Assembly: GCA_902777615.1 (NCBI GenBank)
Contig: CACYUQ010000013.1
Span: 1-33,158 of the forward strand
Source of the DNA: an uncultured Selenomonadaceae bacterium
GTDB lineage: Bacteria; Bacillota; Negativicutes; Selenomonadales; Selenomonadaceae
Length of the DNA stretch: 33,158 bases
Reading direction: 5' to 3'
The position numbers and the translations under genes were made by a program. Under the pieces are notes generated by a model. It saw nothing but the letters and a program-made list of their open reading frames with translations, was not told the DNA's origin and ran no database searches. Positions 8,151-18,776 of this stretch are shown piece after piece; positions within the stretch are counted from its first letter, which is position 1; each line of letters starts with the position of its first letter.

Positions 8151-9299
8151 CTAAATAAATGCGAGGAACTCGTCGGCGTCCAGGTCTTGGAAATCCTCAG
8201 CGACACGCCGTTTCAGCGTTTTGTCCGCTTCACGGTTGTGGTCGAGCTTTTCCATGATACTGTTCAGCAGCAGCAGTACGGTTTCTTCGTCCGGTGTTGT
8301 GTTTTTCCCGGCGGCCTCCAGCAGCAGCGCAAATTCGGCGGCGCGGAAACGCAGCGCGAACAGCTTGAAATTATCCAAGAATCCGCCCGCGCAGGCGAAC
8401 GGGTACAGGCGCAAAAACAGCTCGTTGACCGCGAGATTTTCAAGGATGTGCCCGTGCAGCGCCTGAAGCGCTTCCTCGCTCGCCGCTTCGCGATCCGCCA
8501 GCAAGGAAGCGAGCTCGTTCAGCCGGATGGGGTTGTATTCTTCTTCCGCCTCGTAAAGCTCGGCCACGAGCCCCGCCATATAGCGAAGCCGCGTATAAGC
8601 GGACGCGCGCTGCCAGTTTTCCGTCTCGGGCGTTACATTTTTCGCGCAGGCGGCCAGTTCCGCCGCATCGGGCAATTTGTTGCGCCCGGTCCTGTAGCGG
8701 GCCTCAAGCGCCGCGAGAAAGCGCCCGAGATGCAATAAACGAAGGCGCAGAGACTGCCCGCGATCCTGCAATAAGGCAATCATCTGAAGCTGCAACGCGC
8801 GCAGCCCGTTCTCGCAGCGCAGCGCCTCCATCGGCGGACGTATGGCCGAGGAAATGCGCCGCGCCTCCGTCGTCTGCTCCTCAAAGCGCATTGGTGATTC
8901 GGGCAGCAGCGCGAGCCGGGCCGCTACGGGGCAGGTCATCGCCAGCGAGCGCTCGACGAGACCGGAAAAGCGATAGGACACCCGCGGGAATGAGTCGCAG
9001 ACGTCGGGCAGATAGTCTTCGCCATGGGCCTTTTGCAGGCTGCAAAGCCCGTTCCCGTCGAGGAACGCGCAGGTCCCGTCTTCGTCGTGCTTCGTTTCCC
9101 AGCCCGTTTCTTTTTCTGTAAGATTCGCAAAAACCGCTTTGCGGGCTTTGGACTTCAGCCGCGCCAGACGTTCCCACGCCGCCATGTCCACCGGGATACG
9201 CCAGCCCCGGCAGCAGCGGCATCCGCAGGCCGCACCGTCGCAGTGAAAATCCCAAAGATACGCGGGTCCAAATACGCGCTCGTCATTTTGCTCCGGCAT
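8151..9299 (-). CDS. fliB: FliB-type flagellin lysine-N-methylase
   Basis: 382 aa of the family that methylates surface lysines of flagellin. Signatures: an N-terminal cysteine cluster FHCDGAACGCRCCRGW, then CAFLDGNGLCSLQ and LPDVCDSFPR, and a C-terminal ENLAVNELFLRLYPF segment. The cysteines resemble the metal- or Fe-S-binding CxxxCxxCC pattern of this family. ATG 9299 has GGGAGGG upstream. No flagellar gene is visible nearby, so it is an orphan modification gene here; its presence suggests flagella encoded elsewhere. It ends only about 70 nt before the lexA promoter with no clear terminator. Confidence 0.85.
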   Translation of the reverse strand: MPEQNDERVFGPAYLWDFHCDGAACGCRCCRGWRIPVDMAAWERLARLKSKARKAVFANLTEKETGWETKHDEDGTCAFLDGNGLCSLQKAHGEDYLPDVCDSFPRVSYRFSGLVERSLAMTCPVAARLALLPESPMRFEEQTTEARRISSAIRPPMEALRCENGLRALQLQMIALLQDRGQSLRLRLLHLGRFLAALEARYRTGRNKLPDAAELAACAKNVTPETENWQRASAYTRLRYMAGLVAELYEAEEEYNPIRLNELASLLADREAASEEALQALHGHILENLAVNELFLRLYPFACAGGFLDNFKLFALRFRAAEFALLLEAAGKNTTPDEETVLLLLNSIMEKLDHNREADKTLKRRVAEDFQDLDADEFLAFI

Positions 9300-9369: not shown

Positions 9370-9378
9370 TGCTATAAT
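9370..9378 (+). promoter_or_regulatory. Extended -10 promoter of the cobT-like gene
   Basis: TGCTATAAT: TGN plus a perfect TATAAT (9373-9378). The -35 is weak. The leader is only about 30 nt, leaving no room for a cobalamin riboswitch. Confidence 0.6.
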
Positions 9379-9415
9379 ATATATATTATTTTTATGCAAA
9401 ATGAGGAGGTGCGTC

Positions 9416-11323
9416 ATGTCCCTCTTGGACGATACGATAGCAAAAATCCAGCCCCCGGACGAAGCGGCGGGTCGCACGGCACTCGCGCATCTCGCTGGGC
9501 ATCTGGGCGACGTGGCGGTGATGGGCGCGCTCGGCGAGTTGCTGGAAAAATACGCGGCGATCACCGGCAAAGAGACGTCGACGGCGTTGAAAAAATGCAC
9601 GATCATCTGCTGCGCCGACCACGGCGTCGCGGAGATGAACGTCAGCGCATATCCGGTCTCGACCACGGTGCAGATGACCGCGAACTACCTGATTTCACAA
9701 GGGTCAACGGCAAACGCGCTGTCGAACTTTTCCGGTGCGGAACTCTTGGTTGTCGATCTCGGCATCGCTTCGGACACGACTTGGATTCCGGGGCTGATCC
9801 AGAGAAAAATCGCCTTCGGCACTAAGAATTTCACGAAAGGACCGGCCATGAGCCGCGAGGAAGCTGTCCGCGCCATTGAGACCGGCATTGAACTGGCGGA
9901 AAAATGCGCGGAGGAAGGCGTCGGATGTTTCCTGCCGGGGGAAATGGGCATCGCGAATACGACTTCGTCGGCCTGTATCGCCGCGGCGACCTGCGGATTG
10001 ACGCCGGAACAGGCGACCGGACGCGGAACGAATATTTCCGACGAGCGTCTGAAAATCAAGATTGAAGTTGTGCGGCAGGCCCTCGAAACGAACCGCCCCG
10101 ACCCGACAGACGGCGTCGATCTCTTATCGAAAGTCGGCGGCTTCGAGCTTGGCTGCATCGCGGGCATCATCCTCGGCGCGGCGGTGCATCACGCGTTCGT
10201 TGTGCTGGACGGCTTCAACACCGGTGCGGCGGCATTGATCGCGCAGGCGATTTGCCCGCTCGTCTCTCATTACCTGATGGGCTCTCATCTCGCCGCCGAG
10301 CCGGCGCATCGAGCCATGCTCGAAAAGCTCCATCTGCGCCATTACATGGATATGAAATTCCGCCTCGGTGAAGCGACCGGCTCATCCATCGCGGTGAACC
10401 TCTTGGACGCGGCTTCGCTGGTCTCCGGCTATCTCGACCTCGATGCGGAGGACGACTTCTTCGACCATCAGACGATGCCCGCAAAGGCTGTACCGCTGAC
10501 GGACAAGACCTTCAACTTTTATCTTGAGACCTTCCCAAAGCCGTCCCGGGCGGCAATGGAAGCGTGCCGATTCCGGCTCGACAACCTGACGAAACCAATC
10601 CACTGTCTCGGCTATCTGGAAGAAATCGCCGTGGAGCTGGCGGGCATCTTGGACGAGGAACGCCCGGACACGGATCTCGCCCGTACGCTGCTCGTCTTCA
10701 CGAACGGTGACATGAGCGATGCGCAGCACCAGATCACGGCGGCTTTCGCGACCCACGCGGAGGCGGAGGTCAAAGTCGCGCGCCTGCGCCCGGACCGCCC
10801 GCTGACCGACGCTTTTGACTTCGGACGCGAGACGGCGGAGGACATCACCTTCTCGTCGTCGCTCTTGGCGCTGGCGTTGACGGAAACGAACAAGACGGAC
10901 ACCTTCGGTACGAAGGCAAAAGCGATGCGCGAGGCGCTCCTGACCGAAGACGGGAACCTCAAATTCGAGCCGCAGGAATTCCTCTCCCACGTCCCGAAAC
11001 ATTTGCAGCCGGATGCCGCCGCGCTGCTCGGCGCGATGATCGCCGGCGCGCACAACCACGCGATGATCGTGCTGGACGACGAATCGACGGAAATCATCGC
11101 GCGCTACGCCGAGGCGCTCTGCCCGGCCCTCGCGCCTTACGTGCTGCACGTCCAGCCCGCGCTCCTGACGCTGGGCATGACCGCCCCCGGCGGTGCCGTC
11201 GCCTGTCTCGGTCTGAAGCTCGTGGACGCTGCGCTCCATATCCTGAACGACATGAAGACCTTTACCGAAGCAAAAGTCCCGGTAGCCAATGACGGTCCCG
11301 GTGCTGGACGACAGGTGGAATAG
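9416..11323 (+). CDS. cobT: Double CobT-family phosphoribosyltransferase (ArsA-ArsB-like fusion)
   Basis: CobT enzymes make the alpha-ribotide of the cobamide lower ligand from nicotinate mononucleotide. At 635 aa this is nearly twice a normal CobT (about 350). Domain 1 (about 1-360) has CCADHGV (near 67), LPGEMGIANTTSSA, a GTNISDE loop, VLDGFNTGAAAL, and RLGEATGSS with E319 in the place of the catalytic Glu. Domain 2 (about 375-635) starts like CobT again (LTKPIHCLGYLEEIAVELAG) and ends with GAMIAGAHNHAMIVLD and LTLGMTAPGGA, but has M588 where the Glu should be and no ADHGV. Sporomusa and Veillonella encode two adjacent CobT homologues, ArsA and ArsB, that act as a heterodimer on phenolic bases; a fused version is my inference. 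ATG 9416 follows AGGAGGTG. Confidence 0.85.
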   Translation: MSLLDDTIAKIQPPDEAAGRTALAHLAGHLGDVAVMGALGELLEKYAAITGKETSTALKKCTIICCADHGVAEMNVSAYPVSTTVQMTANYLISQGSTANALSNFSGAELLVVDLGIASDTTWIPGLIQRKIAFGTKNFTKGPAMSREEAVRAIETGIELAEKCAEEGVGCFLPGEMGIANTTSSACIAAATCGLTPEQATGRGTNISDERLKIKIEVVRQALETNRPDPTDGVDLLSKVGGFELGCIAGIILGAAVHHAFVVLDGFNTGAAALIAQAICPLVSHYLMGSHLAAEPAHRAMLEKLHLRHYMDMKFRLGEATGSSIAVNLLDAASLVSGYLDLDAEDDFFDHQTMPAKAVPLTDKTFNFYLETFPKPSRAAMEACRFRLDNLTKPIHCLGYLEEIAVELAGILDEERPDTDLARTLLVFTNGDMSDAQHQITAAFATHAEAEVKVARLRPDRPLTDAFDFGRETAEDITFSSSLLALALTETNKTDTFGTKAKAMREALLTEDGNLKFEPQEFLSHVPKHLQPDAAALLGAMIAGAHNHAMIVLDDESTEIIARYAEALCPALAPYVLHVQPALLTLGMTAPGGAVACLGLKLVDAALHILNDMKTFTEAKVPVANDGPGAGRQVE

Positions 11324-17319: not shown

Positions 17320-17390
17320 TTTTGAGCCTTCAAGGGGAAGGTTCGAATACGCGATTTTTTTGGGAGTTGCAACAAAGGGAGGTTTTTGTC

Positions 17391-18776
17391 ATGGGAGTCG
17401 TCGGAGCCATTGTCGTGCCGCATCCGCCGTTGATTCTGCCGGGAATCGGGCGCGGCGAGGAGAAGAAGATCCAGCCAACCATTGACGCGTACCGAGAGGC
17501 GATGCGACGCATGGCGGCGCTGAAGCCGGACACGGTGATGATTTCCAGCCCCCACGCGACGATGTACGCCGACTATTTCCATATCTCGCCGCGGGAACAT
17601 GCGACGGGGGATTTCGGCGATTTCCGCAGGCCGGAGCTGAAATTCGAAGCGGACTACGACGCGGAGATGGTGAAAACCTTGTCGCGCTGCTTGATGGAAG
17701 CGGGTGTTGACGGCGGCAGCGGAGCGGAGCGGATGCCGAAGCTCGACCACGGCACGATGGTGCCGCTGTATTTTCTGCAGGAAGTCATGCCCAACGTGAA
17801 AATCGTGCGCGTCGGCCTGTCCGGGCAGTCGACTCGCGCACATTACCGCTTCGGCGAATGTGTCGCGCAGGCGGCGGAACTTTTGAACCGGCGCGTGGTC
17901 TATGTGGCGTCCGGCGATCTCTCGCACAAGCTGAAAGCCGACGGCCCTTACGGCTTCGCGCCCGAAGGCCCGCTCTTTGACAAAGAATGTATGGAGGCGC
18001 TGGCGTCGGGGGATTTCCTGCGGCTCCTGTCCATCGACGCGGAGTTTTCCGAGCGCGCGGCGGAATGCGGTCTGCGCTCGTTCTGGATGATGGCGGGCGC
18101 CCTCGACCGTCGTCGTGTCGACTGTGAACAGCTTTCCTATGAGGGACCGTTTGGCGTCGGCTACGGCGTGGCGTCATTTATCGTCGGCGAGCGCGACGAA
18201 AGCCGTGCGTTCGGCGACGCCTTTGAGGCGGCACAAAAGGAACGACTGGCGGCGCGCAAAGCGACGGAGGACGAATATGTAAAACTGGCGCGTATGAGCC
18301 TGGAAACGTTCGTGAAGACGGGCAAGTACGCCGATGTGCCGAAAGATTTGCCGCCGGAGCTTTCCTCGACGCGGGCCGGCGCCTTCGTCTCGCTGAAAAA
18401 GGACGGAATGCTGCGCGGCTGCATCGGCACGATCCTGCCCGTCACGGAAAGCCTCGGCGCGGAAATCGTGCGGAACGCGGTCTCGGCCTGCTCGGAGGAC
18501 CCGCGTTTTTCTCCGGTGACCGAGGACGAGCTGGACGCGCTGGTCTACAGTGTAGACGTATTGACCGAGCCGGAGCCGATCATGTCGGACGAGCTGCTGG
18601 ACCCGAAGCGGTACGGCGTCATCGTCGAGAGCGGCGGTCGGCGCGGTCTGTTGCTGCCCGATCTCGCGGGGATCGACACCGTGGCCGAGCAGCTTTCCAT
18701 CGCCTGCCGCAAGGGCGGTATCGACCCGGAAGGGCCGGTGAAGCTCTGGCGGTTCGAAGTCGTGCGGCACCATTGA
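17391..18776 (+). CDS. MEMO/LigB-like plus AMMECR1 fusion (AmmeMemoRadiSam system)
   Basis: 461 aa with two domains. Residues 1 to about 270 are a class III extradiol dioxygenase (LigB/MEMO-like) fold: VVPHPPLILPG, SSPHA, LDHGTMVPLYFL and ASGDLSHKL supply its conserved His and Asp. Residues about 285-455 are AMMECR1: GAFVSLKKDGMLRGCIGT, VTEDELDALVYSVDVL and a GLLLPDL stretch. With the radical SAM gene downstream this forms the AmmeMemoRadiSam trio, widely conserved but of unknown biochemical role. ATG 17391 has GGGAGG upstream; the open frame to 17322 lacks a ribosome-binding site and was trimmed. Confidence 0.9.
   Translation: MGVVGAIVVPHPPLILPGIGRGEEKKIQPTIDAYREAMRRMAALKPDTVMISSPHATMYADYFHISPREHATGDFGDFRRPELKFEADYDAEMVKTLSRCLMEAGVDGGSGAERMPKLDHGTMVPLYFLQEVMPNVKIVRVGLSGQSTRAHYRFGECVAQAAELLNRRVVYVASGDLSHKLKADGPYGFAPEGPLFDKECMEALASGDFLRLLSIDAEFSERAAECGLRSFWMMAGALDRRRVDCEQLSYEGPFGVGYGVASFIVGERDESRAFGDAFEAAQKERLAARKATEDEYVKLARMSLETFVKTGKYADVPKDLPPELSSTRAGAFVSLKKDGMLRGCIGTILPVTESLGAEIVRNAVSACSEDPRFSPVTEDELDALVYSVDVLTEPEPIMSDELLDPKRYGVIVESGGRRGLLLPDLAGIDTVAEQLSIACRKGGIDPEGPVKLWRFEVVRHH

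Follow-up and report, generated by a model that had tools for sequence, protein, structure and literature searches.

Phenolyl cobamides make up 20–34% of bovine rumen corrinoids and 16% of human faecal corrinoids, and their only proven makers are Sporomusa ovata and Veillonella parvula (PMC8123684, PMC6461909). The enzyme ArsAB of S. ovata, represented by structures 4hdk, 4hdm and 4hds, is encoded by two genes, and its ArsB keeps the glutamate at the catalytic column (LGEGTG). V. parvula has two ArsAB genes and an additional CobT (PMC8123684), and its ArsAB is cited in PMC4657239 as preferring phenolic bases. On the basis of the rule that two cobT genes are adjacent, 27 arsAB species have been predicted (PMC6461909), and no member of the Selenomonadaceae was recognised among the 15 arsAB species printed in a later review. 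The related CobT enzymes of Salmonella, Yersinia and Thermus are homodimers with every motif present in each chain. In Propionibacterium freudenreichii, a naturally fused enzyme of the CobT family occurs as BluB/CobT2, in which the partner is the dimethylbenzimidazole (DMB) synthase BluB (PMC4657239).

The gene described here belongs to an uncultured Selenomonadaceae bacterium and is located in a window of 33,158 nucleotides, the whole stretch of DNA analysed (GenBank CACYUQ010000013.1). It encodes one chain, with a first half like S. ovata ArsA and a second half like ArsB, whereas the S. ovata proteins are separate; the ArsB half is also about 100 aa shorter and lacks the Glu. The fused protein shares with the CobT enzymes the fold, the reaction type, the catalytic Glu and, in total, the same motifs, but these are divided between unlike halves. 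There is one gene where V. parvula has two, and the fusion partner is a second CobT homologue, unlike BluB in P. freudenreichii. Since a single frame in place of two adjacent genes forming a heterodimer is an architectural difference, the protein was filed as a fused ArsAB variant and not as the two-gene form. No description of a fused ArsAB was found in the literature searched, a set outside which the original ArsAB papers lie; the kind of enzyme itself is known.

Structure and conservation of the fused gene

The gene is one open frame on the forward strand, from the ATG at 9416 to a stop codon ending at 11323. The Pfam family DBI_PRT covers its 635-aa product in three stretches (E 4e-123). 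The following features were assigned.

9373–9378 (+), TATAAT, a -10-like element, seen in the sequence only and not listed by the consensus scan
9403–9411 (+), GAGGAGGTG, a Shine–Dalgarno-like sequence of the AGGAGG type before the ATG at 9416, from sequence
9416–11323 (+), fused arsA-arsB gene, 635 aa, from the frame, Pfam, the match to structural relatives and the class-wide search
9416–9586 (+), N-terminal small-domain part of the ArsA half, residues 1–57, TKP motif lost, least constrained, from the motif table, selection and identity
9587–10405 (+), large catalytic domain of the ArsA half, residues 58–330, with D68, H69, E176 and E319, from similarity and the residue inventory
10370–10372 (+), codon of Glu319, the equivalent of Salmonella CobT Glu317, from alignment, the role of Glu317 being taken from PMC9561151
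10406–10540 (+), linker, residues 331–375, from alignment and the AlphaFold model
10541–10660 (+), N-terminal small-domain part of the ArsB half, residues 376–415, LTKP at 391–394, from the motif table and selection
10661–11140 (+), residual large domain of the ArsB half, residues 416–575, catalytic residues lost, from similarity, the motif table and the model
11201–11314 (+), C-terminal small-domain part of the ArsB half, residues 596–633, DMKTF at 612–616, most constrained (omega 0.02), from the motif table and selection

The single frame is conserved, with 82–88% identity among full-length congeneric copies and about 44–70% across the family, and is therefore neither a chance occurrence nor an assembly error. 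A frameshift or assembly artefact was ruled out, since nine further genomes of the genus carry this frame too, two of them in copies cut short at contig ends. The original prediction of one 635-aa frame with two CobT-like regions is thus confirmed by the frame call, the Pfam match and the conservation in relatives.

No B12 riboswitch was detected in the window at the gathering score, and the locus shows no operon evidence, its neighbours being fliB and a DUF6765 gene. The former, encoding the flagellin lysine-N-methylase FliB, adjoins the fused gene and is divergent from it (8151–9299, reverse strand). A protein combining a LigB-like domain and AMMECR1 is encoded elsewhere in the window (17322–18776, forward strand).

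Identity of the two halves

Among solved structures, the best relative of the full protein was S. ovata ArsA (4hdk_A), with 369 bits over residues 1–333 versus 188–204 bits for CobT structures; residues 378–417 and 594–633 matched both ends of S. ovata ArsB. Taken separately, half 1 is about 50% identical to S. ovata ArsA, and half 2 had ArsB as its top match with 83 bits, while CobT scored 28 bits or less. The AlphaFold model of the full chain was confident (pLDDT 93.8, pTM 0.93), with the core of half 2 reduced to a strand-helix form, and Foldseek searches with this model and that of a Pectinatus relative gave ArsA of the ArsAB complex as the best match (target TM-score 0.94–0.96).

A phylogenetic tree of 119 sequences placed half 1 in a set of 42 rows (99*) comprising only S. 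ovata, split and fused ArsA, and a 100* branch parted ArsA and CobT from all ArsB halves, together with one CobT-like row, L072. In a more careful tree of 56 rows, the ArsA group, with half 1 of the window protein inside it, was separated from CobT and ArsB (100/98). Split ArsA of Negativicutes, presumably including that of Veillonella, bracket the fused ArsA. The heterodimer fusion originally proposed agrees with these results: the placement that would have contradicted it (half 1 with CobT, half 2 not with ArsB) did not occur, half 1 being nested among ArsA sequences and half 2 falling with ArsB, and neither belongs to the CobT clade. At eight positions diagnostic of ArsA versus CobT, the ArsA residue is present at all eight in both the window protein and S. 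ovata ArsA, at 6–8 in fused and split ArsA, and at no more than two in 25 CobT. By similarity, tree position and residues, half 1 is ArsA and half 2 is ArsB.

The substitution of the S80/Q88/L175 pocket triple by Y/M/M (Y79, M87 and M177 in the window protein) was considered as proof of phenol specificity and rejected, because Y/M/M also occurs in 9 of the 25 CobT and is not diagnostic. According to the title of structure 4kqj, transplantation of the triple into CobT gave a p-cresol-bound structure.

The CobT equivalog model TIGR03160 also matches the fused protein above its cut-off, with 380 bits, so automatic annotation labels it CobT. This match would favour another origin, in which two ordinary CobT copies, both formerly active on benzimidazoles, were fused in tandem and one is now decaying, but the two halves fall in separate parts of the tree.

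Complementary loss of motifs and selective constraint

The second half has lost the catalytic residues and about 100 aa, and it keeps LTKP and DMKTF, both absent from half 1; nowhere in the fused protein do TKP, the catalytic Glu and the C-terminal TF occur within one CobT unit. The motif table, in Salmonella CobT numbering, covered 26 fused ArsA and 26 fused ArsB halves. In the ArsA halves, the equivalents of the DH pair, Glu174 and Glu317 are kept in 25–26 of the 26, and TKP and the C-terminal TF are mostly gone. All 26 ArsB halves retain K, P and E of the N-terminal motif and M, T, F, V and A of the C-terminal motif. The Glu317 column holds E in every ArsA half and in only four ArsB halves. 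Since S. ovata ArsB has this Glu, its loss is a trait of the shrunken ArsB halves in fusions, not of ArsB in general. The retention of E319 and the degenerate N-terminal segment in half 1, as well as the absence of ADHGV from half 2, were as first described, whereas Met588, which had been taken to replace the catalytic Glu in half 2, lies four residues before that column, which is occupied by Gly592.

Selection was analysed by segment in eight congeneric genes of the genus to which the window belongs. The lowest omega was obtained for the C-terminal end of the ArsB half (0.02), followed by its N-terminal end (0.06), the ArsA large domain (0.09), the residual ArsB core (0.12) and the ArsA N-terminal end (0.19). 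Identity to the window protein in 33 other fusions was 54–65% for the ArsB ends, 38% for the ArsB core and 31% for the ArsA N-terminal end. The pattern was not the same in a second genus, g21, whose ArsB ends were no more conserved than the rest and whose segments ranked in a different order, so the constraint argument draws on one genus and the cross-family motif table. In the host genus, constraint is strongest on the end motifs of half 2, which shows that this half is not merely decaying and, together with the tree, makes an origin from two ordinary CobT copies hardly credible.

In Salmonella CobT, the contribution of the neighbouring chain to the pocket reportedly consists of its N- and C-terminal small domain. 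Because the base pocket of that enzyme is built by both chains (PMC9561151), the simplest reading is that each half of the fused protein lost the parts serving a dead site. The motif table and the selection in the host genus support the complementation between halves anticipated in the original prediction, and the halves have decayed complementarily, as would be expected if both partners contributed to the base pocket, like the two chains of Salmonella CobT.

Distribution and gene context

The fused one-frame form was found in about 108 Selenomonadaceae genomes, including that of the window, and recurs in other Negativicutes. A class-wide search of 380 genomes revealed 75 members of the same family (the host among them) with a single-row match over all or nearly all of the length, an internal TGA being present in one of these; of 36 further family genomes viewed singly, 34 have both halves in one frame, and an internal TAA was seen in one of the 34. 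The closest named relative is a Schwartzia MAG from water-buffalo rumen (84%), and others include Selenomonas, Anaerovibrio, Quinella 2Q5 and two Pectinatus species. A search for viral relatives returned none. The 56-row tree forces at least five changes between the fused and split states, and fusion or fission therefore occurred repeatedly.

Other arrangements were observed as well. In an Acidaminococcaceae MAG (L127:5986-8746), a CobS-like gene lies between genes for a diverged ArsA-like and a shortened ArsB-like protein, and similar diverged and shortened genes are present at L124, L069 and L070. The shortened ArsB-like protein of these pairs keeps the KP and TFEEAGV end motifs. Not being adjacent, such pairs also escape a predictor based on two adjacent genes. 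Genome G334 (family f33) carries two CobT-like genes about 9 kb apart (L072 and L081), of which L072 groups with ArsB, and no ArsA was found in the search of this genome.

At three loci, from Pectinatus, a Selenomonas MAG and one other genome (L088:3818-7437, L085:3-3172 and L019:1498-4919), the fused gene comes immediately after, or overlaps, a tex-like gene, whose product ends in an S1 domain. In Quinella (L098), it adjoins a precorrin-6A reductase gene on the opposite strand.

Reduction of the ArsB half

Split ArsB proteins are about 350 aa long, and shortened split forms of 276–300 aa occur in three genomes. In several further families of Negativicutes, the fused proteins are 626–709 aa long; those of the window's genus have 635 aa and that of L041 has 597 aa. 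In Pectinatus, the fused protein is only 469–478 aa long; its ArsB half of about 100 aa consists of the two ends joined, the core having been dropped, and in the model of the 478-aa protein (pTM 0.95), this second half is predicted to be all-helical. Quinella-type genomes show a loss on the other side, their ArsA half starting at about window residue 57 without its own N-terminal small domain. Both losses are combined in genome G166 (L068) and genus g15 (L071, G219), where an ArsA core is followed by about 80–110 aa of ArsB-like ends. Even the TKP motif has degenerated in L071.

We lean slightly towards the reading that, since the fusion, the pseudo-enzyme half has been shrinking step by step until little more than an active-site lid is left, and that an enzyme of two chains, one of its sites dead, is in this way becoming an enzyme of one chain and one site. 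The series would then run from an ArsB of about 350 aa in split form through about 250 aa here to about 100 aa in Pectinatus, and the ArsA small domain lost in the Quinella and genus g15 relatives would have served only the dead site.

Corrinoid genes of the host and the probable product

The fused gene is the sole PF02277 locus in the host genome, although the assembly, at 92% completeness, may simply lack a second cobT. Genes for CobS, CobD, a CobC-like protein, CbiB and CbiP are clustered without cobT, and CbiC is also present. Of the five cobalamin riboswitches, two lie in a row 5' of the methylmalonyl-CoA mutase genes (L175:7089-13374, contig C39). Phenolyl cobamides bind well to the methylmalonyl-CoA mutase of a different bacterium and support its catalysis in vitro (PMC6759758). 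A family-by-family search of the host yielded no BluB or BzaB above cut-off, and the sole ThiC-family protein is ThiC itself. HydG, which cleaves tyrosine to p-cresol (PMC9046217), was detected with 924 bits. Judged from this gene set, a phenolyl-type cobamide is likely in this rumen-type host.

We consider it probable that the protein is a fused ArsAB with a catalytic ArsA half and an ArsB half acting as a pseudo-enzyme lid, and that it leads to a phenolyl or p-cresolyl cobamide. Nicotinate mononucleotide and the base would be bound by the large domain of the ArsA half, and Glu319 would act as in CobT and ArsA. The remaining task of the ArsB half would be to close the base pocket with its small helical domain (the LTKP helix and the C-terminal DMKTF), which we infer to contact the ArsA pocket across the former dimer interface, now inside one chain. 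The alpha-ribotide would be attached by CobS and the cobamide finished by the cobC/cobD/cbiB/cbiP set of the host. Phenolyl or p-cresolyl cobamide may be made when no other base is at hand, and HydG could supply p-cresol from tyrosine.

It could also be proposed that, despite its descent as a fused ArsAB, the protein serves chiefly to activate salvaged benzimidazoles or purines in the host, its phenolic function being lost or minor. The S. ovata enzyme also activates DMB (PMC8123684), and a DMB complex is among its listed structures (4hdr), so the fused enzyme could serve another base in vivo; moreover, V. parvula produces benzimidazolyl as well as phenolyl cobamides (PMC6759758). As the only base-activating enzyme of its family in the host, the fused protein must handle whichever base is used. 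However, the ArsA-diagnostic residues are all kept, and no known pathway to benzimidazoles scored above cut-off in the host, which does have HydG as a source of p-cresol; we therefore regard a mainly salvage-directed enzyme as unlikely. The argument from HydG is weak, since this protein occurs in many hydrogenase-bearing bacteria.

Significance

A fused gene fails by construction a predictor that needs two adjacent cobT genes. The fused form is family-wide in Selenomonadaceae, with Selenomonas, Schwartzia, Quinella, Anaerovibrio and Pectinatus among its carriers, some of which are rumen bacteria, and this makes rumen makers of phenolyl cobamides directly testable in culturable species. The relatives also form a deletion series made by nature, from which one can read off the portion of a dead partner that an enzyme still requires. 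If the stepwise reduction to an active-site lid did take place, the family would be a main, overlooked source of phenolyl cobamides in the rumen and gut.
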